Part shown: in pieces, positions 42,979-55,123 of the stretch
Layout: each line of letters begins with the position of its first letter
Position numbering within the stretch: position 1 is the stretch's first letter
Source: Desulfovibrio sp. ZJ209
GTDB taxonomy: Bacteria > Desulfobacterota > Desulfovibrionia > Desulfovibrionales > Desulfovibrionaceae
Length of the DNA stretch: 64,000 nucleotides
NCBI RefSeq assembly: GCF_011039135.1
Contig: NZ_JAAKEJ010000001.1
Span: 248,001-312,000 of the forward strand
Direction of reading: 5' to 3'
Notes under the pieces: model-generated
Database searches by the model: none
Told to the model about the DNA's origin: nothing
The model's input: only the letters and a program-made list of their open reading frames with translations
Program-made: the position numbers and the translations under genes

Positions 42979-43280
42979 GCCGAAATTATCCGTCAAAAAC
43001 AGCCTTGCTTCAGCCGTTGCGACGAAGGAAGCTACGGATGAAGACAGCAGTTAGTTACCGCGCTGGTCAGACAACGATGCCGCTGTCGCTATCCGTAAGG
43101 CTCGCAGACTTGCCAACGGCTAGCGCTTTGGTGCTTGCTGCGTCAGAAAAAAATTTCCTCGGTCGAGTACTCAAGTACACTCCCTTCGGAAATTGTTTTT
43201 CTTCCTTGCAAGCACCAAAAAATCTTATTTTTTAGGATTCTTCCGGCACGAGCACCCGTCTTCCGCTTCGCTCCAGACGG
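42979..43280 (+). repeat. 300-bp nested intergenic repeat, copy 1
   Basis: Layout: a 28-base head starting GCCGAAATTATCCGTC (42979-43006), the 120-bp unit B (43007-43126), then the hairpin unit. Hairpin arms TTTGGTGCTTGC (43127-43138) and GCAAGCACCAAA (43208-43219) are exact complements, with an inner AGAAAAAAATTTCC/GGAAATT-TTTTTCT stem. The tail ends at CCGTCT...AGACGG (43280). Copies 2 (51605-51904, reverse) and 3 (54823-55123) have the same parts and length. It lies between the glycosyltransferase and ssb genes. B sits before the hairpin in this copy. Confidence 0.9.
43007..43126 (+). repeat. 120-bp palindromic unit B in repeat copy 1
   Basis: The unit runs from GCTTCAGCCGTTGCG to CAACGGCTAGCGC. 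Terminal AGCCGTTG (6-13) pairs with CAACGGCT (108-115). Inner TACGGAT/ATCCGTA and GACAGC/GCTGTC pairs make one long imperfect hairpin. It contains AAGGAAG followed 7 bases later by ATG and 29 further codons without a stop. Related copies of exactly 120 bases are at 51693-51812 and 54931-55050. Confidence 0.88.
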
Positions 43281-43429
43281 ACTGAAGGAATATTTATCTG
43301 CTGCATGGCAGAATATACCCTTTCACGCTGGAAATTTGAAAGCCGCAGCTAAACTTTCGACAACGGGCACGCGGGCACGCCCTGAAAGGTGCCGGGCGCC
43401 AAGGCGCCCGGCTTCTATCTTTCATCTCC

Positions 43430-43963
43430 CTAGAACGGCACCTCGTCCATGCCCGAGGCCTCGGAGGGGAAGGCCGGCCCCAAGTCATCGTCGTGCCGGT
43501 TCTGCCGGCCTTGCGGCGCATGCGGGGCGTTCCTGCCGCCCTGCTGGCCCCCCTGGCGGTTGCCCTGCGGGCGCTGCCGCTGGCCGCCGCCGTCGCCCCA
43601 GTCATTGGGGGCGCCGTCAGGCGCCTGGCCGCGCTCGCCCTTGCGGTCAAGGAACTGGACGCGCTGGGCCTTGATCTCGGTGGTGTAGCGGTCCTGCCCG
43701 GACTGGTCCTGCCATTTACGCGTCTGGAGACTGCCCTCCACGTAGACGAGGCTGCCCTTGGCGAGATAGTTGGCGCAATTTTCCGCCTGGCGCTGGAAAA
43801 CGGAAACGCGGTGCCACTCGGTGCGTTCCACCTTGTTGCCGTCCCTGTCCGTATAGGATTCGTCGGTCGCCACGTTGAGCGTGGCCACCGGGGAACCGCT
43901 CTGGGTGTAGCGGAGTTCGGGGTCGCGGCCGAGACGGCCGATGAGCATGACCTTGTTCAGCAT
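43430..43963 (-). CDS. ssb: Single-stranded DNA-binding protein
   Basis: The 177-residue product has the SSB OB-fold from residue 1 to about 108: MLNKVMLIGRLGRDPELRYT, then WHRVSVFQRQAENCANYLAK and LVYVEGSLQTRKWQDQSGQD. It is followed by a Gln/Gly/Arg-rich linker and the acidic tip MDEVPF that recruits partner proteins. It coats single-stranded DNA during replication, repair and recombination. It stands alone; the next gene on the same strand is 66 bases upstream. An inverted repeat GCCGGGCGCC/GGCGCCCGGC at 43391-43412 just past its stop may help termination, though its T-tract is poor. Confidence 0.97.
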   Translation of the reverse strand: MLNKVMLIGRLGRDPELRYTQSGSPVATLNVATDESYTDRDGNKVERTEWHRVSVFQRQAENCANYLAKGSLVYVEGSLQTRKWQDQSGQDRYTTEIKAQRVQFLDRKGERGQAPDGAPNDWGDGGGQRQRPQGNRQGGQQGGRNAPHAPQGRQNRHDDDLGPAFPSEASGMDEVPF

Positions 43964-44028
43964 GTAAGGCTCCTGCGCGCGGGCTGCCCCGCGCCAAGCT
44001 GGCTAGGGTGAGGCGGAAGTGGGCGCCC

Positions 44029-44367
44029 CTACTCGGTGTAGGCGCGCTCCAGCGCGTCCAGCGCGTCTTCCAGATCGTCACTCAGGGCATTGGCCTTGCG
44101 GGCGTCCCAGTCGGCGAGCGCGGCTTCAAGATCGGCCTTGAGGCGCGCGGCCTCGCGGATGCCCGGGCCCATGGCCTGCTTGCGCGCCTCGGACCATTTC
44201 ATGAAGCGCAGGCCCTCGTCCAGGCGGCGCACGAGCTCGAGCACGCCGCGCCCCTCGCTCTTCACCGGCACGGTGCCGGCCAGCCTGACGAGCCTGGGCC
44301 AGTATTCCTCCACGAGGTCGTCGTTCCACGTGACCGCCGTGACCCTGATTTGCAGCACTTTGCCCAT
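44029..44367 (-). CDS. Small hypothetical protein at the end of the acyl-CoA carboxylase operon
   Basis: The 112-residue product starts at the ATG at 44367, with GGGAGG upstream. It is helical and acidic towards the end (ADWDARKANALSDDLEDALD). No family is recognised. It begins 11 bases after the lipoyl-like protein gene and is the last gene of the accC-accAD unit, so it may be a subunit or assembly factor of the carboxylase. That is inference from position alone. Confidence 0.65.
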   Translation of the reverse strand: MGKVLQIRVTAVTWNDDLVEEYWPRLVRLAGTVPVKSEGRGVLELVRRLDEGLRFMKWSEARKQAMGPGIREAARLKADLEAALADWDARKANALSDDLEDALDALERAYTE

Positions 44368-44378
44368 GGTGGCCTCCC

Positions 44379-45029
44379 TTAGTCGGTTTCCTTCCATTCG
44401 GTCTGGACGCGCATGATGACATCCTGAATGGCCGGGAGCTGGTCGCGCGGGCACACGCCGATGAGCGGCGCGCCGGCGTCCATGTTTTCGTTATAGGTGA
44501 AATACACCGAGTAAATGACGCCCTCGGGGCCGGAATAGCGCAGAGGCGCCTCGCGCTTCATGCGCGACATGATGAGCAGCTCCATGCCGTCGCGCACGGC
44601 CACGGAATGCGCGTCCGAGGCGCGGATCTTCTTGTCCACCTCGGGGGTGAAATAATACTTGGCCCGCTCCGGCGCGCGAAAGAGGTGCAGCGCCTTGCGC
44701 AGGATGATGGCCTGCACTTCCTCGCGGGTGAGCTTGTGGCGCAGCACCGCGAGCGCGGTGCCGGCCTCCACGAAGGCGCCTTCCAGCTCGTCGCGCACCG
44801 CCGAGATCTCGCCCTTTTCCGGCACGCAGATGGGCTTGGGGTTGCGCTCGCGCTCCAGCGTGGCCACGAGGGTGCCGGGCTTTTCCTTCCATTGGCCTTG
44901 CGGGCCGTGCACCTTGTCGCCGGGCTTGAGGCCGGCGAAAGTCACCTTGCCGGTATGCGGGGCCGCGATGACGATCTCCCGGTAAGGGGAGTCCTTGATG
45001 CCGTCGAGCAGCGCGGAAATGTCGATCAT
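44379..45029 (-). CDS. Biotin/lipoyl-domain-like protein of the acyl-CoA carboxylase operon
   Basis: The 216-residue product has a half-barrel-like N-terminal part: IVIAAPHTGKVTFAGLKPGD, then ICVPEKGEISAVRDELEGAF and VEAGTALAVL. These resemble the two halves of a biotinyl/lipoyl domain ('G.v......Gd.V..G..l..le'). The position of the modified lysine, normally (A/V)MKM, shows no lysine; the turn reads PEKGEISAV. It may be a carrier that lost or moved its lysine, or a structural subunit. It follows the fused carboxyltransferase gene by 33 bases in the same direction, so a role in the carboxylase complex is likely. The C-terminal half is not recognised. Confidence 0.55.
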   Translation of the reverse strand: MIDISALLDGIKDSPYREIVIAAPHTGKVTFAGLKPGDKVHGPQGQWKEKPGTLVATLERERNPKPICVPEKGEISAVRDELEGAFVEAGTALAVLRHKLTREEVQAIILRKALHLFRAPERAKYYFTPEVDKKIRASDAHSVAVRDGMELLIMSRMKREAPLRYSGPEGVIYSVYFTYNENMDAGAPLIGVCPRDQLPAIQDVIMRVQTEWKETD

Positions 45030-45062
45030 GCTTTTCCTGTGCGGGGCCGCGTCCTGCGCCCG

Positions 45063-47309
45063 CTAGCGGTAATAGAGGTTCCTGCCGCCGATGGTCATCA
45101 GGGCCTGCTTCAGGTTGGTGCGGATCTGCCGCCTGTCCCAGATGCCCTGGATGTGGCCGCGTGACAGGGCGCGGTAGGAGCGGTGGTACTTGGGCGGGAT
45201 GTCCATGCCCGTGGTCTCCTTGATGACGCCGGGCCCGGCGAAGCCGATATTGGAGGAGCGCACGGCGAACTGGTAGGGCGAGCAGCCGAGGAAGCTCGCC
45301 ACCGGGCCGGCGAAGGAATTGGTGTCGTACAGCACCATGTAGAGCCCGCCGGACTCGATATAGCGGCGCACGGCCACGGTGCAGCGCGGCATCTGGATGA
45401 CGCCGTGCGTGCCCTCCTGGATGCGGATGCCGGCCGTGCCGTGCACATAGGCGAGGAAGGGTTGGCGCTTCTTGGCGGCGCGCTCGGCCGCCTCCACGAA
45501 CTTGAAGCCCTCGGCCGCGCCCACGGAGCCGCCGCGGAAGGTGCCCATGAGCATGGCCACCACCATCTTGATATTGTCGATGCGCGCCTCGAAGGTCATG
45601 CAGCCGCTCTTGGCGCCGGTCTTTTTCTGCGCCGCGGCGATGCGCTCGGCAAAGCCCGGGAAGTCCAGCGGGTTGCCGGCCTCGATCTCGCTGTTGAACT
45701 CAAAAACCGAGCCCTCGTCGAACACGTTTTTCACATACCATTCCGGCTCCATGGGGAAGTGGTAGCCGCAATGGCTGCAAACGCCGGCGAATTCGGCGAA
45801 AAGGTCGGGCCCCCAGAGGTCGAGGCAGCCGTAAGAGGCGCTGTTGGGGCAGGTGACGGCGCGGTCGATCTTGTAGCGCGGCGAGATGTAGTTCCACTTG
45901 CGGCGCCGGCCGTCGCCCGACCACGCGGAAAGCGCGGTGAGCTCGCTCGCGGCGTCCTCCTTCTTGGCGCGCGGTCCGGCGATCTTGTGCAGCGGCGAGA
46001 AAAGGCGCCCCTTGAAGGTCTCCCACTCGTTGCCCACTTCTTCCATGAAGCCGCTGAGCTTGCGGCGGTGCTTGCGGTAAAAATCGTACTTGAAGGCCAC
46101 CCAGGGCTTGCTCGCCCAGTCCCAGAAGGCCGTGGCCGTCTTGGTGAGGAAGGGGCGGCGGTCACGCGCGGCGTTGCGCGAGAGCCTGAGGAACTTCTGC
46201 TGGCGGCGTTCGCGCAGCCGCAGCTTTGCCGCCGGGGTGAGGCCCCAGCGCATGTGCATCTCGTCGAGGTTGGCCTCGGGATTGCGACGCCGCGACAGCG
46301 CGAGCCCCCGGAACATGGGGAGCCTGCGCGTGGAGATGACCACCTCGTCCGTGGCGCGCAGCACCTCCTGCCGCAAATTGCGGAAAAACTCGAAGTGCCA
46401 GGGCCGGGCGCCCAAGGGGGGCTCCTGCACGATGCGGTCGATATACCCGAAGCGCAAATTGTCTTCGGCCGTGATGTGCAGGTTTTCGGCGCAATGCTCG
46501 ATGAGCTCGGGCGTGGCGCGCTCGCCGGCCTTGAGGCGCCCCTCGATGGCCGCCGCGCCCTCGGGCGAGATGACGGAATAATAGCCGTGCGAGAGCATGA
46601 GCCGCTTGTCGGCGAGGCCGATGGCCTCGGCGCCGCCGGAGCCGCCCTCGGAGATGACGGCCACCACGGGCACGCGCAGGCCGGCCATGCCGTAGATGTT
46701 GCGGGCGATCTGCTGGGCCGCGCCGGGATAGTCCTCGATGGGGTAGGAGCCGGGCGTGAAGATGTAGGCATGGATGGGGATGCCCTCGGTCTCGGCGACG
46801 CGCATGTATTGCAGGGCCTTGGCGTTGCCCCAGGGCTTCACCGAGCCGCCGTTGCGGAACTCGGCGCCGTGGCCCTTTTCCTGCCCGATGACGAGCACGG
46901 ACTGCTGGTAGGTCTTCTTGCCGCGGCGGCGGATGATGACCGCCCGCGCGATGAGCATGCTCGGGTCGAGGCTGTGCTCGTCCTGGCCGCCCACCTCGGT
47001 GAAGTTGTCGTAGACGTTTTCAAGGATGTCGCGCAGGCAGATGCGCTGTGGGTGGCGCACGATGCGCACCTTGTCCATGGGCGTGATCTCGTTGTCGAGG
47101 CGCCGCTCCACATACGAGAACAGATCCTCCACAGTGGCCAGCTCGGCGTAAGGGTCCTCGAGGGAGCCGTCGGCCGCGCGCCTGGCGAAGCCGTCCAGCC
47201 GCTCGCGCAAAAGGTCGGCGTTGTCCGCGTGCTTGCCCGCGAAAATATCCTGCAGGTAGGCGAGCCTGTCGCGCAGGCTCTGGATGCGTTTTGCGATATT
47301 GTTGTCCAT
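45063..47309 (-). CDS. Fused acetyl/acyl-CoA carboxylase carboxyltransferase (AccA-AccD)
   Basis: The 748-residue product joins both carboxyltransferase subunits. The first part (about 1-310) is AccA-like: PMDKVRIVRHPQR, VLVIGQEKGH, FRNGGSVKPWGNAKALQYMR, SEGGSGGAEAIGLADKRLML. The second part (about 480-748) is AccD-like, with a four-cysteine zinc ribbon (TCPNSASYGC and GVCSHCGYHF) and FEARIDNIKMVVAMLMGTF, then HGTAGIRIQEGTHGVIQMP. A linker of about 150 charged residues lies between. The enzyme moves the carboxyl group from carboxybiotin to acetyl-CoA (or another acyl-CoA) to start fatty-acid synthesis. accC lies 20 bases upstream. The order alpha-then-beta is notable, since most bacteria keep two genes. 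Confidence 0.9.
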   Translation of the reverse strand: MDNNIAKRIQSLRDRLAYLQDIFAGKHADNADLLRERLDGFARRAADGSLEDPYAELATVEDLFSYVERRLDNEITPMDKVRIVRHPQRICLRDILENVYDNFTEVGGQDEHSLDPSMLIARAVIIRRRGKKTYQQSVLVIGQEKGHGAEFRNGGSVKPWGNAKALQYMRVAETEGIPIHAYIFTPGSYPIEDYPGAAQQIARNIYGMAGLRVPVVAVISEGGSGGAEAIGLADKRLMLSHGYYSVISPEGAAAIEGRLKAGERATPELIEHCAENLHITAEDNLRFGYIDRIVQEPPLGARPWHFEFFRNLRQEVLRATDEVVISTRRLPMFRGLALSRRRNPEANLDEMHMRWGLTPAAKLRLRERRQQKFLRLSRNAARDRRPFLTKTATAFWDWASKPWVAFKYDFYRKHRRKLSGFMEEVGNEWETFKGRLFSPLHKIAGPRAKKEDAASELTALSAWSGDGRRRKWNYISPRYKIDRAVTCPNSASYGCLDLWGPDLFAEFAGVCSHCGYHFPMEPEWYVKNVFDEGSVFEFNSEIEAGNPLDFPGFAERIAAAQKKTGAKSGCMTFEARIDNIKMVVAMLMGTFRGGSVGAAEGFKFVEAAERAAKKRQPFLAYVHGTAGIRIQEGTHGVIQMPRCTVAVRRYIESGGLYMVLYDTNSFAGPVASFLGCSPYQFAVRSSNIGFAGPGVIKETTGMDIPPKYHRSYRALSRGHIQGIWDRRQIRTNLKQALMTIGGRNLYYR

Positions 47310-47329
47310 TTCGCCCTTTGCTCGCGCCC

Positions 47330-48802
47330 TCAGAAGCGGAGGATGCGCCCGGTATTGGCCTTGAGGAAATTCACGTTGGACCTGAGCGGCTCGCCCGCGC
47401 CGTTGACGCCCTCGAGCTTGAGGGAATCGAGAAAGGCAAGGCCCCGCTCCTTGGCTTCGTCGATGTCCTTGCCCCAGATGATGGCGAGCGCCAGATTGGG
47501 GTCAAATTCCGTAGGAATTTCGTAAGGATGGTCCAGCGGCACATGGGTGAGCACGGTGAGCCAGGGCGCCGGCGTCCACGAGAAATGCTCGATGCGACCA
47601 ACCCAGGGGGTGAAATTGTTGTCCGGGTCTTCGGCGATGAGGCGGTATTCCACGCCGACGCCCTCGGTGGCGATCTCCGCCTGGGTGTAGCCCAGGGGCT
47701 CCCCGAGGCCCGTGCGGATCTGCTCGGCGATGAGGTCAACGCCCTCCTCGCCGCGCACGCGCGCGATGCAGGCCGAAACGCCGTTCTCCACCTGGATGCG
47801 CGTGTTCACCTCCATGAGGAAGGGCTCGCCCTTGCGGGTGACGATCCACTCCCATGTGCCCACATTGTCGTAGCCCACCTTTTTCGCCATGGCGAGGGAA
47901 TAATCCACGATGTCGGTGAGCACGCGGTTGGCGTCAAAGGTGTAGTGCAGGGTCTCCGGGGCGAAGCCCGGGGCCACCTCGATGCGCTTCTGGAGGCCCG
48001 TGGACTGGATGGAGCAGTTGCGCGTGCCGAAATGCACGGGGTTGCGGCCCGAACGGTCGGAAACGATCTGCACTTCCAGATGGTTGAAATCCGTGATGCG
48101 CTGCTCGATGAGCACGCCCTCGTCCTTGAACTGGCGCAACGCGTAGTTGCGGATGCGGCGATAGACGGAGCGGAACTGGTCCGGGTCGTAGACCTCCTCG
48201 ATGCCCATGCCGCCGCCGCCCGCCGAGGCCTTGACGAGCACGAGCGGCCGCTGGATGCCCTGCGCCTCCTGGAACTCGAAGACGGACTTGGCGATGCGCT
48301 CGGCCTCCAGCTCGTCATAGATGGGCCGGTCGGAGCCGGGCACCGTGGGCACGTTGAGGCTGCGCGCGAGGCGCTTGGTGTTGATCTTGTCGCCGAGCTC
48401 GCGGATGATCTTCCACGAGGGGCCGATGAAGATCATGGCGCGGTCGCGCTTGGTCACGCGGCGGGCGAAGCGGAAGTCCTCGGCAAAGAAGCCGTAGCCG
48501 GGGTGCACGGCGGTTGCGCCCGCCTCGTCGGCCACGGCCATGAGCTCGTTGGCGTCATGGTAGGAGGAGACGCGGAACAGGCTTTTTTCGCCGCCGATGC
48601 GGCGCGCCAGCTCCACATGGCCCGAGGCTTCGTCCTCCCCGGTATAGATGGCGGCAAAGCCCACGCCGAGCTTGCGGCAGGCCTGCATGATGCGCATGGC
48701 GATCTCGCCCCGGTTGGCCACGAGCACCTTGTGGCCCGAGAGGTCCGGGGCCGGGGCGGCCTCCGGTGCCGCTTTCTTCTTGCTGTCCTGGGCCTTGCTC
48801 AC
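47330..48802 (-). CDS. accC: Biotin carboxylase subunit of acyl-CoA carboxylase
   Basis: The 490-residue product is a biotin carboxylase with the opening HKVLVANRGEIAMRIMQACR (24-43), the ATP-grasp glycine loop KASAGGGGMGIEEV (about 190-203), RNCSIQSTGLQKRIEVAP and the active-site strand EVNTRIQVENGVSA, where the common form has VEHPVTE. The catalytic Glu, Asn and Arg are kept, but His is replaced by Asn. It carboxylates biotin on a carrier with ATP and bicarbonate. The start is GTG at 48802 with GGGGAG 6 bases upstream. It is the first gene of the carboxylase operon. No obvious biotin carrier with an MKM motif is encoded beside it. Confidence 0.92.
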   Translation of the reverse strand: MSKAQDSKKKAAPEAAPAPDLSGHKVLVANRGEIAMRIMQACRKLGVGFAAIYTGEDEASGHVELARRIGGEKSLFRVSSYHDANELMAVADEAGATAVHPGYGFFAEDFRFARRVTKRDRAMIFIGPSWKIIRELGDKINTKRLARSLNVPTVPGSDRPIYDELEAERIAKSVFEFQEAQGIQRPLVLVKASAGGGGMGIEEVYDPDQFRSVYRRIRNYALRQFKDEGVLIEQRITDFNHLEVQIVSDRSGRNPVHFGTRNCSIQSTGLQKRIEVAPGFAPETLHYTFDANRVLTDIVDYSLAMAKKVGYDNVGTWEWIVTRKGEPFLMEVNTRIQVENGVSACIARVRGEEGVDLIAEQIRTGLGEPLGYTQAEIATEGVGVEYRLIAEDPDNNFTPWVGRIEHFSWTPAPWLTVLTHVPLDHPYEIPTEFDPNLALAIIWGKDIDEAKERGLAFLDSLKLEGVNGAGEPLRSNVNFLKANTGRILRF

Positions 48803-48948
48803 GCGATTCTCCCCAAAAGGCTCTGCGGTACGCGCCTTGCGGCGCGGGCTTGTGGGAAACGGCCTTCCGGCATATCCTGCGGCCGCCAGCTTTCGCGGGG
48901 CTTGCGCGCAACGGCGCGGCGCCGTTTTCACCATCAAGGGATGATTCT

Positions 48949-49842
48949 ATGCAAAATCCGCAAGAAGTCCAGCATGCCGTGGCCGGCTTGCGCTCGGCGC
49001 TCGAGCGCGGCGGCGCCGACCTTTCGCGGGCTCCCGTGGCGCTCGTGCTCGGCACGGGCCTTTCCGGCCTTGGCGAAACGCTCGTGTCCGGGGCGGGCAG
49101 CGTGCGCGTGCCTTTCTCCGAGGTGCCGGGCATGCCGCGCCCGGGCGTGGATTCGCATGCCGGGGCCTTCGTGTGGGGGCGGCTTGCCGGCGTGCCCGTG
49201 CTGGCGCAACTGGGCCGCTGCCACCTCTATGAGGGGCGCACGCCGGCCGAAGTCTGCATGGGGGTGCGCGTCATGGCGGCCCTCGGCGCCCGCGCGCTCG
49301 TCATCACCAACGCGGCCGGCGCGCTCGACCCCTTCTTCGAGGCCGGCTCCCTCATGTGCATCGCGGACATGATCAACCACACCGGCGTTTCGCCGCTCAC
49401 CGGCCCCAACTGCGACGACTTCGGCGAGCGCTTCCCGGACATGAGCGCGCCCTATGACCGTGAGTTCCGCAAGCTCGCGCGGGCCGCGGCGCTCAGGCTC
49501 GGGATACGGCTGGAAGAGGGCGTCTATATCGGCGTCCACGGCCCGGAAATGGAGACCCCGGCGGAAACGCGCATGTACCGCCAGTGGGGGGCCGACGCCG
49601 TGGGCATGAGCACCGTGCTCGAGGTCATCGCCGCGCGCCACATGGGCCTGCGCGTGCTCGGCATCTCCTGCCTGACCAACAAGAACCTGCCGGACTGCAT
49701 GGCGCCCGCGCCGCTTGCCGAGGTCATAGCCGTGGCCGGGCGCGCCGGGGAGGCGCTGGGCCGGCTGCTGGTGGAGCTGCTGCCGGGCCTCGCGGAAGCC
49801 ACGGCCCGGGGGCTCGCGGACCAGGGGCAGCGGCGCCGGTGA
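48949..49842 (+). CDS. Purine nucleoside phosphorylase
   Basis: The 297-residue product is a trimeric-type purine nucleoside phosphorylase. It shows APVALVLGTGLSGLGE, RCHLYEGRTPAEVCMGVRVM, ITNAAGALDPFFEAGSLMCI, GVHGPEMETPAETRMYRQWG and DAVGMSTVLEVIAARHMGLR. These include the phosphate site, the base-contacting Glu in the E-T-P region and the AGMST ribose site. It splits inosine and guanosine for purine salvage. It starts at an ATG with AAGGGA upstream, divergently from accC, and ends 82 bases before the CNNM/CBS gene. Confidence 0.93.
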   Translation: MQNPQEVQHAVAGLRSALERGGADLSRAPVALVLGTGLSGLGETLVSGAGSVRVPFSEVPGMPRPGVDSHAGAFVWGRLAGVPVLAQLGRCHLYEGRTPAEVCMGVRVMAALGARALVITNAAGALDPFFEAGSLMCIADMINHTGVSPLTGPNCDDFGERFPDMSAPYDREFRKLARAAALRLGIRLEEGVYIGVHGPEMETPAETRMYRQWGADAVGMSTVLEVIAARHMGLRVLGISCLTNKNLPDCMAPAPLAEVIAVAGRAGEALGRLLVELLPGLAEATARGLADQGQRRR

Positions 49843-49923
49843 TTGCCAAAGCCCCGGCCCCGGGCTAGGATGGAAACGACCGCGCCCACCAAGGGGCGGC
49901 GAACCACTTGCCGGGATGCCTGC

Positions 49924-50973
49924 ATGTTGACGCTGTTTCTGGCCGTTGGCGTGGCCGTGTTCGTGTCCTTTTTCTGTTCCCTCGCCGAGGCCGCGCTCTA
50001 CGCGGTGCCGTGGTCGGCCATCGAGCGCCTGCGCAGCGAGGGCAAGACCGTGGGCAAGCTCCTCTACAGGATGCGCAGCGACGTGGACCGCCCCATCGCG
50101 GCCATCCTCACCCTCAACACCGTGGCCAACACCGCGGGCTCGGCCATTGCGGGCGCCGCCTTCCTCGCCGTGTTCGGCGCCTCGCACATGGCGCTCTTCG
50201 CCACCGGCTTCACCGTGGTCATCCTGGCCTTCGGCGAGATCGTGCCCAAGACGCTGGGCGTGGCCTATGCCACCCCCGTGGCCGCCATGCTGGCGCGGCC
50301 GCTCACGCTCATCATCCGGGTGCTCTCGCCGCTGCTCTGGCTCACCGGGCTCCTGACGCGGCTGCTCTCGCCGAAATCCGGCAAGCCCGAGGTCTCGGAA
50401 GACGACATCCGCGCCATGACCAGCCTCTCGCGCAAGGCCGGCCGCATCCAGGCCTATGAGGAGCACTTCGTCCGCAATGTGCTCTCGCTGGACCAGAAGC
50501 GCGTCCACGAGATCATGACCCCGCGCACGGTGGTCTTTTCCCTGCCGGACGACCTCACCGTGGCTGAGGCCTACAAGGACCCGCGCATCTGGCACTTCAG
50601 CCGCATCCCGGTCTACGGCGAGGACAACGAAGACCTCGTGGGCCTCGTGGAGCGGCGCACGCTCGGCCGCTGCTACGCCGAGGACAAGCTCGACCTTCCG
50701 CTCTCGGCCATCATGCGGCCGCTGCATTTCGTGCAGGAAAGCCAGACCCTTGACGTGCTCTTGCGCGAGCTTTTGGGCGAGCGCGTGCACCTTTTCGCCG
50801 TGCTCGACGAATACGGCGGCCTTGCCGGCGTGGTCTCGCTGGAGGATGTGCTGGAAGAGATCCTCGGCAGCGAGATCATGGACGAAAGCGACAATGTGGC
50901 CGACCTGCGGGCTCTCGCGCGCGAGCGGCGCAAGGCCCTCACGCGCAAGGCGGCGTCGCAGGCCCGCGAATGA
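49924..50973 (+). CDS. CNNM/CBS-domain membrane protein (CorC/HlyC-like)
   Basis: The 349-residue product begins with three or four membrane segments of the DUF21/CNNM domain (LTLFLAVGVAVFVSFFCSLA, LTLNTVANTAGSAIAGAAFL, VVILAFGEIVPKTLGVAYAT). The latter two strings are family signatures ('N...Nt..s', 'f.EiiPK..g'). A CBS pair follows: VHEIMTPRTVVFSLPDDLTV and LFAVLDEYGGLAGVVSLEDV. There is no CorC_HlyC transporter-associated domain at the end. Such proteins are thought to take part in magnesium export or related ion balance. ATG at 49924 places the first residue at the membrane segment; an upstream frame from 49843 is less likely. Confidence 0.88.
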   Translation: MLTLFLAVGVAVFVSFFCSLAEAALYAVPWSAIERLRSEGKTVGKLLYRMRSDVDRPIAAILTLNTVANTAGSAIAGAAFLAVFGASHMALFATGFTVVILAFGEIVPKTLGVAYATPVAAMLARPLTLIIRVLSPLLWLTGLLTRLLSPKSGKPEVSEDDIRAMTSLSRKAGRIQAYEEHFVRNVLSLDQKRVHEIMTPRTVVFSLPDDLTVAEAYKDPRIWHFSRIPVYGEDNEDLVGLVERRTLGRCYAEDKLDLPLSAIMRPLHFVQESQTLDVLLRELLGERVHLFAVLDEYGGLAGVVSLEDVLEEILGSEIMDESDNVADLRALARERRKALTRKAASQARE

Positions 50974-51013
50974 GCGCATGCGCCTTGACAACCTCCAAGG
51001 AATGATTCCTGTA

Positions 51014-51042
51014 TTGTCAGCAGGCGCAAAACCGGCTATACT
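51014..51042 (+). promoter_or_regulatory. Sigma70-type promoter of ccmE
   Basis: TTGTCA (51014-51019) and TATACT (51037-51042) are 17 bases apart, close to the consensus. Transcription would begin near 51049, giving a 65-base leader before the ccmE ATG at 51114. Confidence 0.6.
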
Positions 51043-51113
51043 TTTCCCACTCTATCGGCAGCCAAACAGCGGCGCCGCCCCGGCATGGGGCGCTGCGCCG
51101 GGACGGAGCACGC

Positions 51114-51527
51114 ATGGCGCGCAAGAAAACCACACGCCTCTATGTCGCCGCCTTCCTCCTCTTTTTGGGCGGCGTGGGCTTTCTCGCCTACACCGGCTTT
51201 GCGGAGAACAGCGTCTACTTCCTCAATGTGGCCGAGGCCCGCGCGGCCACGCAGGAACGGCTCACGGCCGCGCGCATCTTCGGCACCGTGGCGCGGGAGG
51301 GCATCGAAAAGCCGGCGGACGCCATGGGCGTCAGCTTCCGCCTTGAGGACAAGGACGACGCGGCGGTCATCCTGCCTGTGGATTACCGCGGCGTGGTGCC
51401 GGATGCCTTCAAGCCCGGCGCGGAGGTCATCGTCGAGGGCGGCATGGGCAAGGGCGGCCGCTTCTCCGCCAAGGTGCTCATGACCAAGTGCCCCTCCAAG
51501 TACCAAAAGGAAAACCGCACGAGCTAG
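51114..51527 (+). CDS. ccmE: Cytochrome c maturation heme chaperone CcmE, Cys-type
   Basis: The 137-residue product has one N-terminal membrane anchor (about residues 9-27) and a periplasmic OB-fold. It carries heme covalently to apocytochromes c. The heme-binding motif is C-x-x-x-Y (Cys126, Tyr130 in TKCPSKY) instead of the usual H-x-x-x-Y. This cysteine form is known from Desulfovibrio CcmE and from archaea, and agrees with the taxonomic call. VDYRGVVPDAFKPGAEVIVE matches the family's 'Y.GilPdlF..G..vv..G'. No other ccm gene follows: the gene is followed by the second copy of the 300-bp repeat. Confidence 0.92.
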   Translation: MARKKTTRLYVAAFLLFLGGVGFLAYTGFAENSVYFLNVAEARAATQERLTAARIFGTVAREGIEKPADAMGVSFRLEDKDDAAVILPVDYRGVVPDAFKPGAEVIVEGGMGKGGRFSAKVLMTKCPSKYQKENRTS

Positions 51528-51604
51528 GGGCCTTTCCTGACACAATTCAAGGGGCTGCTTCTAAGAGTTCAGTCATTCAGCATCGTCGCCGAACCTTCCA
51601 CCGT

Positions 51605-51904
51605 CCGTCTGGAGCGAAGCGGAAGACGGTGCTGGTGCCGGAAGAATCCTAAAAAATAAGATTTTTTGCTGCTGGCAAGGAAGACAAAAATTGCGCTAGC
51701 CGTTGGCGAGTCCACGAGCCTTACGGATAGCGACAGTGGCAGCGTTGGCTGTCCTGCGCGGTAACTAACTGCTGTCTTCATCCGTAGCTTCCTGCGTCGC
51801 AACGGCTGAAGCTCCGAAGGGAGTGTACTCAAGTACTCGACCGAGGAAATTTTTTTCTGACGCAGTCAGCAGCAAAAAGGCTGTTTTTGACGGATAATTT
51901 CGGC
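51605..51904 (-). repeat. 300-bp nested intergenic repeat, copy 2 (reverse)
   Basis: Read on the minus strand it begins GCCGAAATTATCCGTC (at 51904) and ends with AGACGG (at 51605). The hairpin arms are TTTTTGCTGCTG and CAGCAGCAAAAA, again 12 exact pairs although their sequence differs from copy 1. Unit B (51693-51812) is inserted inside the right part of the hairpin, between CTTCGGA and AATTTTT. The empty site is seen uninterrupted in copy 1 as CTTCGGAAATTG. It lies between the convergent ccmE and spermidine-synthase-like genes. Confidence 0.9.
51693..51812 (-). repeat. 120-bp palindromic unit B in repeat copy 2
   Basis: The unit is exactly 120 bases with the same ends and the same terminal AGCCGTTG/CAACGGCT and inner pairs as the unit at 43007-43126. 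The open frame after the internal ATG is kept, with several amino-acid changes. Here it interrupts the hairpin unit. Confidence 0.88.
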
Positions 51905-52009
51905 GTCCCTGAGCAGCATAGGCGCATCACCATCGCAAGAACGCGCCCAAACCTTCCCTAAAAAAGCTCCCCCGGCAGAACCAACGGCTCCAAAAGCCGC
52001 TTCCCGGCT

Positions 52010-53500
52010 CTACTGCCGCGCCAGCATGAGCGTGAAGCGCTCCACCGGGGCGTAATCGTCGCGCAGGGGCTCGCCCGGCTCGATGGCGCTTGTGTAGCGG
52101 TGGGCCTCCATGGTGTCGGCCGCCAGCAGCGGCAGCGCGGCATCCTCCCGCGCTTCGGGGAGCGCCACGAGCATGAGGTTCTGCACGCGCTCCGGGTGGC
52201 CCGGGTCGCCCACGCAATAGACGCGCACTTCGGGGAAGGCCTGTGCGAGCGCATGCCAGATGCCGCGGAAGAGGCGGCCGTCCGGCCCCTCCACCGCCGA
52301 GATGACGTTCATGACGAGCGCGCCGCCCGGCGCCACGGCCCGGCGCAGGGCCTGCGCCGCCTCGACCGTGCCCATCTGGAAGGGCACGGAATAGTGGGAG
52401 TTGAACACGTCCACGAACACGAGGTCAAAGGCGTCCTCTTGGCGATTGAGGAAGGCGCGGGCGTCCTCGTGGCGGACGGTGAGGCGCGGGTCGTCCTTCA
52501 AGCCGAACCAGCGGCGTGCGCTTTCGGTCATGGCCGGGTCGAGCTCCACCACGGTGAGGTCGAGGTCGTCGCCAAGGCCGCTCTTGCCCGAGAGCAGCCA
52601 CTTGGGCACGGAATAGCCGCCTCCCCCGAGCATGAGCAGGCGTTTTGCCCCGGGCGCGAGCCGGGGTCCCAGGGCATAATAGCGCGTATAGTCGAAATAG
52701 AGCTCGTCCGGCGCCTCCAGCAGCATGCCGGACTGGCTGTAGCCCGGGTCCGTGGCCATGAGGCGCACGGGCTTGCCGCCGCGGGCGTAGTCCACGCCCT
52801 CCATGATGCGGATGCTGTTGTACGGGCTCTCCACAAGGCGCGTGCCCTTTTTCTCGGCCAGCCATTCGCCGTAGAGGCTGTCCTGCCACGCGAGGAAGAG
52901 GCAGAGCAGGATGAGGATCAGGCGGCCCCAGGGGCGCTTATGGCTGTTGGCGAGCGAGAGCAGGAGCATGGCCACGGCGAGAGCCCAGAGGATGAGTGTG
53001 CTCCCGAACCAGGAAATGAGCACGAAGCCCCCCAAGAAGGTGCCGAGGATGCTGCCGGCCGTGGAGAGCGCATAGAGCCGGCCCACGGTGGCGCCCGCCG
53101 TGTCCACGCTGGCGATGCGCAGGCGGATGACATAGGGCGTGATCATGCCGAAGAAAAAGGCGGGCAGGGCGAAGGTGGCGACGGCCGCGGCCACGGCGGC
53201 GGCATAGAGGTTGCCGACGGCGCCGGTGATGCCGCTCCCGATGGCCGTGTGGCAAAAGGCCGTGATGCCGCAGCCGATGCCGGCGCCGGCCAGCGCCTGC
53301 CCGAGGCCTCGCCGGGAGAGCGACCTGTCCGCAAAGCGGCCCCCGGCCCACGCGCCCAGCGCGAGGCAGGCAAGGATCACGCCGATGAGGCTCGTCCACA
53401 CGATGGCCGAGGTGCCCACATGCGGGGCGAGCACGCGGCCGCCCACCATTTCCAGCACCATGACGAGGGCGCCGCTCAAGAAGACCGTCAGTTCCAGCAT
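52010..53500 (-). CDS. Membrane-fused spermidine synthase-like protein
   Basis: The 496-residue product combines a membrane half with a spermidine-synthase fold. The first 215 residues hold about seven hydrophobic segments (LELTVFLSGALVMVLEMVGG, IVWTSLIGVILACLALGAWA and others), a pattern shared by spermidine-synthase-like membrane proteins. The second half (about 220-496) has LLMLGGGGYSVPKWLL (SAM/dcSAM-binding loop), LDLTVVELDPAMTESARRWF, and FDLVFVDVFNSHYSVPFQM. The aminopropyltransferase activity is uncertain in these fused forms. No speD or speA gene is near. ATG at 53500 is preceded only by a weak GGAAA ribosome site. Confidence 0.85.
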   Translation of the reverse strand: MLELTVFLSGALVMVLEMVGGRVLAPHVGTSAIVWTSLIGVILACLALGAWAGGRFADRSLSRRGLGQALAGAGIGCGITAFCHTAIGSGITGAVGNLYAAAVAAAVATFALPAFFFGMITPYVIRLRIASVDTAGATVGRLYALSTAGSILGTFLGGFVLISWFGSTLILWALAVAMLLLSLANSHKRPWGRLILILLCLFLAWQDSLYGEWLAEKKGTRLVESPYNSIRIMEGVDYARGGKPVRLMATDPGYSQSGMLLEAPDELYFDYTRYYALGPRLAPGAKRLLMLGGGGYSVPKWLLSGKSGLGDDLDLTVVELDPAMTESARRWFGLKDDPRLTVRHEDARAFLNRQEDAFDLVFVDVFNSHYSVPFQMGTVEAAQALRRAVAPGGALVMNVISAVEGPDGRLFRGIWHALAQAFPEVRVYCVGDPGHPERVQNLMLVALPEAREDAALPLLAADTMEAHRYTSAIEPGEPLRDDYAPVERFTLMLARQ

Positions 53501-53517
53501 AGGTTTCCGTTTTCCCG

Positions 53518-54039
53518 CTACCGCCGGGCGGCGAAACAGTCCCGCAGGAGCGCCGCGCATTCTTCCGCGCGCACGCCGCCCATGTGCCAGACAGGAGTCG
53601 GGCACGCCGGGCCGTCCAGATATTCCGCGCGCGAAGTGACGGCGCCGGCGGCCTCGTCCGCCGCGCCATAGACCACGCCCGCCAGCCGCGCGTGCGCGAT
53701 GGCCGCGGCGCACATGGCGCAGGGCTCCAGCGTCACCACGAGCACGCAGCCGGAAAGCCGCCAGTTGCCGAGCCTCGCGCAGGCCTCGCGGATGGCGAGC
53801 ACTTCGGCATGCGCCGTGGGGTCGTGCCCGCGCTCCACGGCATTGCCGGCCCGGGCGAGAAGGCTCCCGTCCGCGCCCGCGATGACCGCGCCCACCGGCA
53901 CGTCGCCCTCGGCCCCGGCCTTGCGGGCCTCCGCAAGGGCCAGCACCATGAGCGCATCCCATGTGCGCCCCGGGGGCGGCGAGGGCACGGGGCCGGCCTG
54001 CGCGAAGGCGCGCGGGCGGGGCGCATCGTCCTCCCGCAT
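53518..54039 (-). CDS. tadA: tRNA-specific adenosine deaminase
   Basis: The 173-residue product has the zinc deaminase motif HAEVLAIREA (His77, catalytic Glu79) and LEPCAMCAAAI (Cys107, Cys110), with YGAADEAAGAVTS after it, typical of TadA. It converts adenosine 34 to inosine in tRNA-Arg(ACG). The N-terminus has about 25 extra residues. The ATG at 54039 lies one base after the stop of the upstream LOG gene, so the two are translationally coupled, which also explains the lack of a ribosome site. Confidence 0.93.
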   Translation of the reverse strand: MREDDAPRPRAFAQAGPVPSPPPGRTWDALMVLALAEARKAGAEGDVPVGAVIAGADGSLLARAGNAVERGHDPTAHAEVLAIREACARLGNWRLSGCVLVVTLEPCAMCAAAIAHARLAGVVYGAADEAAGAVTSRAEYLDGPACPTPVWHMGGVRAEECAALLRDCFAARR

Positions 54040-54040
54040 A

Positions 54041-54709
54041 TTACAGGATGACGATCTTGCGCAGGTGGTTGACCACTTCCTCCGGCGTGTCGCAAATCGT
54101 GATGAGCTTGTCGATCTCGTCCTCGCTGATGAAGCCGCCGGCCACCATGCTCTTGCGCAGCCATTCGGAAAAGCCGCTCCAGAAGCGCGAATTGTAGAGG
54201 ATGATGGGGAAGGGGCGGCTGCGGCCGGTCTGCGCCAGCACAAAGGCCTCGGAAAGCTCGTCGATGGTGCCCATGCCGCCGGGCATGACCACATAGGCGC
54301 GGGCATACTTCACGAACATGAACTTGCGGATGAAGAAATAGCGGAAGTTGCAGCGCGTGGTCACATAGCGGTTGCAGCCCTGCTCGTGCGGCAGCTTGAT
54401 ATGCAGCCCCACGGAGACGCCCCCGGCCTCCGTGGCGCCCTTGTTGGCCGCCTCCATGACGCCGGGGCCGCCCCCGGTGATGACGCCGTAGCCCGCGTGC
54501 GCGAGCAGCCCGGCGAGCTTTTCCGCATCCTGGTATTCCTGGCTCTCGGGCTTGCTGCGCGCCGAGCCGAAGATGGAGATGCAGTTGACCTTGAGAGAAT
54601 TGAGCTCGTCGAGGGCGTTGACCATTTCCGCCATGATGCGGAAGGTGCGCCAGGATTCGGTGCCGGAGGCGGCGAGGTCGTCCACGATGTTCTGTCGAAA
54701 TTCGGGCAT
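54041..54709 (-). CDS. LOG-family protein (cytokinin riboside 5'-monophosphate phosphoribohydrolase-like)
   Basis: The 222-residue product has the LOG signatures VITGGGPGVMEAANKGATEA and VVMPGGMGTIDELSEAFVLA, together with SIFGSARSKPESQEY near the start. LOG-type enzymes hydrolyse nucleoside 5'-monophosphates to a base plus ribose 5-phosphate. The conserved Arg and Glu of the PGGxGTxxE motif are present (MPGGMGTIDE). It is the longer bacterial type, often annotated as lysine-decarboxylase-like. It overlaps tadA's start zone and lies next to the third 300-bp repeat. The ATG at 54709 follows AAGGAACAGGA. Confidence 0.88.
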   Translation of the reverse strand: MPEFRQNIVDDLAASGTESWRTFRIMAEMVNALDELNSLKVNCISIFGSARSKPESQEYQDAEKLAGLLAHAGYGVITGGGPGVMEAANKGATEAGGVSVGLHIKLPHEQGCNRYVTTRCNFRYFFIRKFMFVKYARAYVVMPGGMGTIDELSEAFVLAQTGRSRPFPIILYNSRFWSGFSEWLRKSMVAGGFISEDEIDKLITICDTPEEVVNHLRKIVIL

Positions 54710-54822
54710 TCCTGTTCCTTGGTCCGGCCTTTGCGCCGGACACCCGCGGGGGCATCCGGCGCAGGGGCCGTTGGCTTTGTCGTCTTTGTGAGTTTGTGTC
54801 GTGCTTGTGCAGCACAGATAAC

Positions 54823-55123
54823 GCCGAAATTATCCGTCAAAAACAGCCTGTTCGGTGCTGGCTGCGTCAGAGAAAAATTTTCTTGGTCGTGTACTTAAGT
54901 ACACTCCCCGCGAAAATTTTTATCTTCCTTGCTTCAGCCGTTGCGACGAAGGAAGCTACGGATGAAGACAGCATTTAGTTACCACGTCCGTCAGCCAACG
55001 ATGCCACTGTCGCTATCCGTAAGGCTCGCAGGCTCGCCAACGGCTAGCGCGCCAGCACCGAAAAATCTTATTTTTTAGGATTCTTCCGGCACTAGCACCC
55101 GTCTTCCGCTCCGCTCCAGACGG
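54823..55123 (+). repeat. 300-bp nested intergenic repeat, copy 3
   Basis: The head GCCGAAATTATCCGTC begins at 54823. The hairpin arms TTCGGTGCTGGC (54851-54862) and GCCAGCACCGAA (55051-55062) are 12 exact pairs, a third sequence version of the same stem. Unit B (54931-55050) is inserted immediately before the right arm, after ATCTTCCTT. The tail CCGTCT...AGACGG ends at 55123. It lies between the LOG gene and the DUF362 gene. Confidence 0.9.
54931..55050 (+). repeat. 120-bp palindromic unit B in repeat copy 3
   Basis: The unit is 120 bases long with the same ends and inner pairs as the other two B units. Here B is placed at the base of the right hairpin arm. The internal open frame is again unbroken. 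Confidence 0.88.

Follow-up and report, generated by a model that had tools for sequence, protein, structure and literature searches.

How can one palindromic unit come to lie at three different places within three otherwise alignable repeats? The question is raised by a 64-kb window (the whole stretch of DNA that was analysed, G000:C1:248001-312000) of the genome of Desulfovibrio sp. ZJ209, referred to here as the own genome (G000; 2.70 Mb in 12 contigs, C1 and so on; 99.96% completeness), in which a first-pass annotation had noticed three intergenic repeats of about 300 bp carrying the same 120-bp unit. All three copies are indeed present, and the unit, which we call B, follows CAGCCTT in copy 1 (site 1), CTTCGGA in copy 2 (site 2) and CTTCCTT in copy 3 (site 3); relative to the B of copy 1, those of copies 2 and 3 each show 92.5% identity, and once B is removed the host units, which we call A, can be aligned over ~184 bp. 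The host proved longer than the 300 bp minus B that had been delimited, with flanking arms of ~51 and ~42 bp on either side of this core, ending in inverted repeats. A is a miniature inverted-repeat transposable element (MITE), ~271 bp long without B and with a core of ~184 bp. Two kinds of DNA parasite thus appear to be stacked in one another; B is probably an independent 120-bp unit, REPIN-like (a REPIN being a doublet of repetitive extragenic palindromic, or REP, sequences that forms a hairpin, according to the available passages of Bertels and Rainey, 2011; PMC3116915), which has been spread and lost within A mainly by homologous exchange between A copies.

A transposon host and its palindromic insert

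We regard A as a MITE because it combines terminal inverted repeats, target duplications and empty sites. Among the 95 A copies with sequence (64 from the own genome and 31 from its sister species, G204), the terminal inverted repeats, GGCTTTGTTATACTTTTGAGTTGG with CAACTGCTCAGTATAACATAACC, are both clear in 20, and the arms of the youngest copies start GGCTTTGTTATAC and finish GTATAACATAACC. The 8-mers flanking these 20 clear copies agree at a mean of 5.25/8 positions (vs. 2.42 in cross-pairs), and at six or more of the eight in 10/20 copies (vs. 1.05% of cross-pairs), a target-duplication signal that peaks solely at length 8 and shift 0. The early remark that no target duplication was evident therefore stands for B and fails for A, whose young copies show one of 8 bp. 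The core folds into nested helices, a long hairpin and a terminal stem-loop, in which 10/42 base pairs changed on both sides among 31 copies without B, a count reached by 0/500 shuffles.

A occurs in many copies (at least 64 loci) and, at ~271 bp, is too short for a transposase of its own. With up to three mismatches allowed, its terminal inverted repeat gave 15 matches in 3/61 genus genomes, the own genome included; since all 15 have A sequence alongside, which in one case, where the contig stops, amounts to just 26 bp, none of them revealed a longer, autonomous element, and this candidate was rejected. The terminal repeats resemble those of the ISL3 family; an ISL3 parent for A was rejected, as the corresponding transposase (PF01610) was found in 0/3 genomes (own, G204 and G201). 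Copy 1, A and B together, had no match in a plasmid collection. A third insert, the REP-like unit C, lies at one fixed place near A position ~151 and has a hairpin that resembles B 73-113; it was seen at 7 own A loci (6 by blastn and 1 truncated, by eye; examples are G000:C1:41389-41685 and G000:C6:81164-81420) and in 2 copies in G204.

B consists of two REP-like hairpins in inverted order plus a spacer. In 38 copies of 120 nt chosen from the available ones (37 of them distinct), 11/28 pairs changed on both sides (reached by 0/500 shuffles), and the basal pairs covary (UA to CG, CG to UA and GC to CG). By structure B qualifies as a REPIN; no matching REP-associated tyrosine transposase (RAYT) was found in the own genome. 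Matches to B (E up to 0.001) were found in 44/199 family genomes, own included, with a single half only in many; most of the copies read are extragenic, and some lie in frame in genes. Of the 21 B copies read in Desulfovibrio sp. ZJ369 (G087), 16 occupy one of two positions within a palindromic repeat distinct from A, TAGAGC...GCTCTA, 4 lie within another B and 1 in a phage gene; B within B occurs elsewhere at position 34 (G042) and at position 84 (G146). The ZJ369 repeat carrying B was read at loci L321-L340 of that genome; G063 has the 44-bp left half of B alone, in dozens of copies on many contigs and many of them 100% identical to the query half; and, as a candidate target motif of B, a C stands at -4 in many of 18 sites (by eye).

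Both repeats are far commoner in the own genome than the three copies first noticed, with at least 64 loci of A and at least 49 uninterrupted, full-length 120-bp B units, numbers that exclude chance. Own-genome counts of A and B are lower bounds, the best 40 of 43-83 candidates per DNA query having been scored, and the loci were tallied by blastn on the retrieved stretches (69 clusters minus 3 without A minus 2 fragments, giving 64). B is present at 37 of these A loci and absent from 27, one of which holds another insert. Far from always lying in the same place, B occupies site 1 in 26 cases (4 of them in forms without part of A), site 2 in 5 and site 3 in 11, the remaining units lying inside another B at position 90 (4) or without A (3). 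All 46 units in A, including the 4 within another B, follow the strand of A. Some A copies hold two B units, at sites 1+3 or 1+2, and deletion forms of the type A[1-28] B A[98/110-end] have lost the stretch of A that separates two of the sites.

Turnover and probable exchange of B among A copies

We compared the own genome with the sister species G204 and with further relatives (G201, L344, L361, L342 and L341), several of the relatives being metagenome-assembled genomes (MAGs) and L344 and G201 possibly representing one genome. Fourteen own A loci were comparable with G204 on both flanks. A is missing in G204 at 8/14 and lies at the same place at 5/14, and among these five the state of B differs in four: B is in the own genome only at copy 1, C6:78808 and C1:312940, in G204 only at C4:48530, and in neither at C1:178488. 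At C6:78808, shared descent is certain by arm, the left arm standing 1/52 from its G204 ortholog. The A of G204 that lies in the same intergenic region as copy 2 was rejected as an ortholog, since the two occupy different places (by eye), and is not among the five. The copy 3 site is without A in L361, L342 and L341 but is occupied by the same insertion in L344, where B stands at sites 1 and 3; the copy 1 site is without A in L361 and L344. Presence of A thus does not follow a tree, and A and B both turned over between these species. The original description, of one mobile or shuffling palindromic element nested within a second, is supported: both units are palindromes that recur, A shows 8-bp target duplications and is missing from its sites in some relatives, and one and the same A position can be found with or without B in sister species.

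The shuffling of B is real, but to a large extent it appears to reflect exchange between copies, by gene conversion and by deletion between pairs of B units, and not a fresh hop of B each time. Copy 2 and the A copy at G000:C6:115962-116263 differ by 2 mismatches in 301 (plus 2 gaps) inside, vs. 13/45 in the left and 10/35 in the right arm. Copy 1 and C6:78808 have identical B units (0/120) and nearly identical hairpin segments (2/95), with left arms that differ in 14/49 positions; C6:78808 has the arm of its own G204 ortholog, yet its hairpin segment differs from that ortholog in 8/94 positions, and toward its 3' end copy 1 stands 1/59 from G204 vs. 3/59 from C6:78808. Two copies with three B units each, C3:16403 and C7:19979, are 99.3% alike inside and 77% alike in the left arm (shuffled, 69%). 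Across A copies, cores agree at 0.93, whereas the agreement of the arms is close to that of shuffled sequence (0.73 vs. 0.69 on the left, 0.71 vs. 0.68 on the right). Because a freshly transposed composite would carry its arms along, gene conversion between dispersed A copies is the simplest reading of such pairs, and simple transposition of A+B composites was rejected, the most similar composites having unrelated arms. Composites with target duplications exist (C1:41389, 8/8; C8:77844, 7/8; C7:19979, 6/8; C4:199596, 6/8). The deletion forms fit recombination between B units, and a weakly resolved tree of B (93 rows, 120 columns) requires 16 changes of site label (at least 4 are needed in any case, and shuffled labels need 43), so that B lineages crossed sites by either route. 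Taken together, these sequence patterns point to ectopic gene conversion as the main route by which B spread among A copies.

The course of events that we envisage is as follows. A is a non-autonomous transposon that moved with 8-bp target duplications, by a presumed enzyme; B went into A at three points without target duplication, into itself, and in frame into phage genes. Gene conversion would then transfer a tract consisting of B and the adjoining hairpin to an old A copy at another locus, and where one A holds two B units, recombination between them would remove the intervening sequence, both steps being suggested by the tract patterns. B would therefore 'move' by virtue of sitting in a dispersed host family whose near-identical members recombine with one another.

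Several observations weigh against this account. Of the five A copies at shared places, C6:78808 alone is confirmed by an arm count; the left arm of copy 1 differs from its G204 counterpart in 13/50 positions and the arms of C1:178488 are 73% and 79% alike to those in G204, in both cases near the level of unrelated copies, so that shared descent at these two loci rests on position. L361, whose protein identity is the highest among the relatives (94% in its best segment), is without A at all three window sites, and this non-tree-like presence of A hints at loss of A or gaps in MAGs. Between copy 3 and L344 the site-1 B differs and the adjoining hairpin hardly does (3/108), a pair that fits gain or loss of B only as well as it fits short conversion. 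Core identity is 0.928 both within and between genomes, so that the uniformity of the core may in part be due to selection, and the two G204 solo A copies facing copy 1 and C6:78808 likewise differ little (6/182). The covariation of A is less clear by one of five measures, further pair types, which was reached by 30/500 shuffles. Finally, conversion is not exclusive, since each site, and the phage genes too, required at least one insertion of B.

In a second account, which we consider rather unlikely, B would be an actively transposing REPIN whose RAYT (IS200/IS605-like) acts in trans or was recently lost, A being a favoured target and insertion being strand-specific, into single-stranded hairpin regions. 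An inverted REP-like doublet without target duplication, oriented like A in all 46 own cases, found also in the ZJ369 palindromic repeat (two positions; 16/21) and in B itself at 34, 84 and 90, and differing at site 1 between copy 3 and L344 with little else changed, is what such an element would leave. However, a REP-associated, IS200/IS605-like transposase, which the first-pass annotation had proposed to look for, was not found in the own genome, where the IS200-type domain Y1_Tnp (PF01797) has no match despite near-completeness; Y1 genes are present in 73/199 family genomes, and neither A nor B was matched by blastn at 30 Y1 loci of relatives drawn from these 73, within the stretches available around them (0/30 for B). 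In the clearest pairs, moreover, the adjoining hairpins change along with B.

It is less probable still that A is a transcribed structured RNA or a DNA-binding site under selection, with B and C as optional helical domains harmlessly inserted at helix junctions and mobility incidental. The covariation in A and B, the conserved core beside decayed arms, and the intergenic placement are in keeping with such a role (in a crude scan of open reading frames [ORFs] that placed 63/64 A loci, 41 lie between tandem, 14 between convergent and 8 between divergent genes), but the 8-bp duplications and the sites without A demonstrate mobility, entire hairpins are absent in the deletion forms, and Rfam at gathering score gave 0 matches in the window and none over A or B in 8 loci. 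That the different positions of B are assembly errors in collapsed repeats is highly improbable: several G204 contigs do finish in A/B repeats and several relatives are MAGs, but the same architectures, sites and doubles recur in the own genome and in the assemblies of G204, G201 and L344, the flanks of copy 3 agree between the own genome and L344, and the copies of B in phage genes are cleanly inserted in frame. We retain exchange between A copies as the probable main route.

Copies of B in phage genes and likeness to known repeats

Outside A, B was also met in frame inside phage genes. In the own genome one B splits the protease I of a Mu-like prophage, so that the PF10123 match (E 3.6e-93) has its profile 1-329 spread over 369 residues, 40 beyond the profile; the relatives L395 and L396 are without most of the B-encoded segment. 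A second own B is in frame close to the N-terminus of a Mu GemA protein, with PF06252 matching downstream. No GemA relative, and hence none without B, was found in viral contigs, and the annotated phage relatives listed show no empty allele because their alignments begin at residue 27 or later. In a tape measure protein, B is in frame both in the phage contig L393 and in ZJ369, and the relatives L399 and L401 are without 40 residues at its position. Similar open frames in G042, G196 and G146 are further candidates.

These in-frame cases are a minority. When flank rules were applied to 54 distinct B copies in the loci concerned, 15 were assigned to the ZJ369 repeat, 4 to another B and 3 to contig edges, and 32 to none of these, a few of the last lying in or beside other B pieces (by eye). 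A comparison of B length inside genes (120 nt) and elsewhere (116-121), meant as a test for in-frame insertion, was dropped as circular. B had no match in a phage collection, and a 37-base pattern of B matched 2 viral contigs. As a separate observation, a Type II hammerhead ribozyme (RF02276; 61.3 bits, cut-off 37) lies at L095 1452-1516 on the minus strand, equal to G000:C6:26451-26515, in a Mu-like prophage region and ~240 bp from a solo B.

The combination of A and B recalls several known systems and coincides with none. BOX elements of pneumococcus are modular repeats with a variable number of inner units; A and B are likewise modular with inner units, whereas B also lives elsewhere and takes several positions. 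Like REPINs, B has two inverted REP-like hairpins and a spacer, shows compensatory changes and has single halves that are also dispersed; unlike what the available passages on REPINs describe, no RAYT was found here, B is nearly always in a MITE in its own genome, and some copies are in frame in phage genes. Rickettsia palindromic elements, as presented in the accessible portions of two papers (PMC10969869, PMC2229807), are palindromes of ~100-150 bp that lie between genes and in frame in ORFs; B shares this size, and both intergenic and in-frame placement, a likeness of behaviour, but it nests in MITEs and in itself, and its three confirmed in-frame hosts are phage genes. GTAG- and CGTC-tagged REPs are described, in the part of PMC3733652 available, as dispersed short palindromes with common dimers and with intragenic copies, the CGTC type being without a dedicated transposase; B is similarly dispersed, dimeric and at times intragenic, but has no clear GTAG or CGTC tag (by eye). 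A resembles the MITEs ERIC, Correia and RUP, as far as they are covered in the excerpts of PMC10969869 and PMC2229807, in its terminal inverted repeats, its target duplication, its non-autonomy and its intergenic position, but has a core that is more conserved than the terminal arms and carries B or C inserts.

Judged from titles, the starts of abstracts and passages, the literature searched held no description of such repeats in Desulfovibrio, nor of a REPIN-like unit that nests within itself, within phage proteins and within two host repeats unrelated to each other. The spread of short palindromic repeats without a known transposase is called an open question, in the available text of PMC3733652, for CGTC repeats including two families of Rickettsia palindromic elements. 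B is one such element: sister species show the same host repeat both with it and without it, and it is found in two unrelated host repeats, within itself, and in frame in phage proteins. These natural before/after pairs make two routes directly testable, namely recombination between host copies and true insertion, and a REP-like family can, on this evidence, multiply as the passenger of a MITE. It is possible, though we put it forward only tentatively, that the B family represents protein-coding REPINs of the Desulfovibrionaceae, which would unite REPINs and Rickettsia palindromic elements, be shuttled by Mu-like phages as in-frame riders in their genes, nest within cells in MITEs and in themselves, seek hairpins and spread with no resident RAYT.

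Layout of the three window copies

Table 1. Parts of the three composite repeats, in window coordinates.
Feature	Position	Strand	Counterpart in relatives
Copy 1, left end of A core	42979..43006	+	
Copy 1, B at site 1 (120 bp, without target duplication)	43007..43126	+	G204: A without B at same place
Copy 1, remainder of A core (covarying hairpin, right end, terminal stem-loop)	43127..43282	+	
Copy 2, right part of A core	51603..51692	-	
Copy 2, B at site 2, within 3' arm of inner helix	51693..51812	-	
Copy 2, left part of A core	51813..51904	-	
Copy 3, left MITE arm, starting GGCTTTG (terminal inverted repeat)	54773..54822	+	Same arm in L344
Copy 3, A core as far as site 3	54823..54930	+	
Copy 3, B at site 3, before 3' arm of main hairpin	54931..55050	+	
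Copy 3, right end of A core and terminal stem-loop	55051..55124	+	

In the intergenic region that holds copy 2 (~51540-52000 of the window), L342 and L344 have an extra open frame of ~140 codons that the window is without (by eye).

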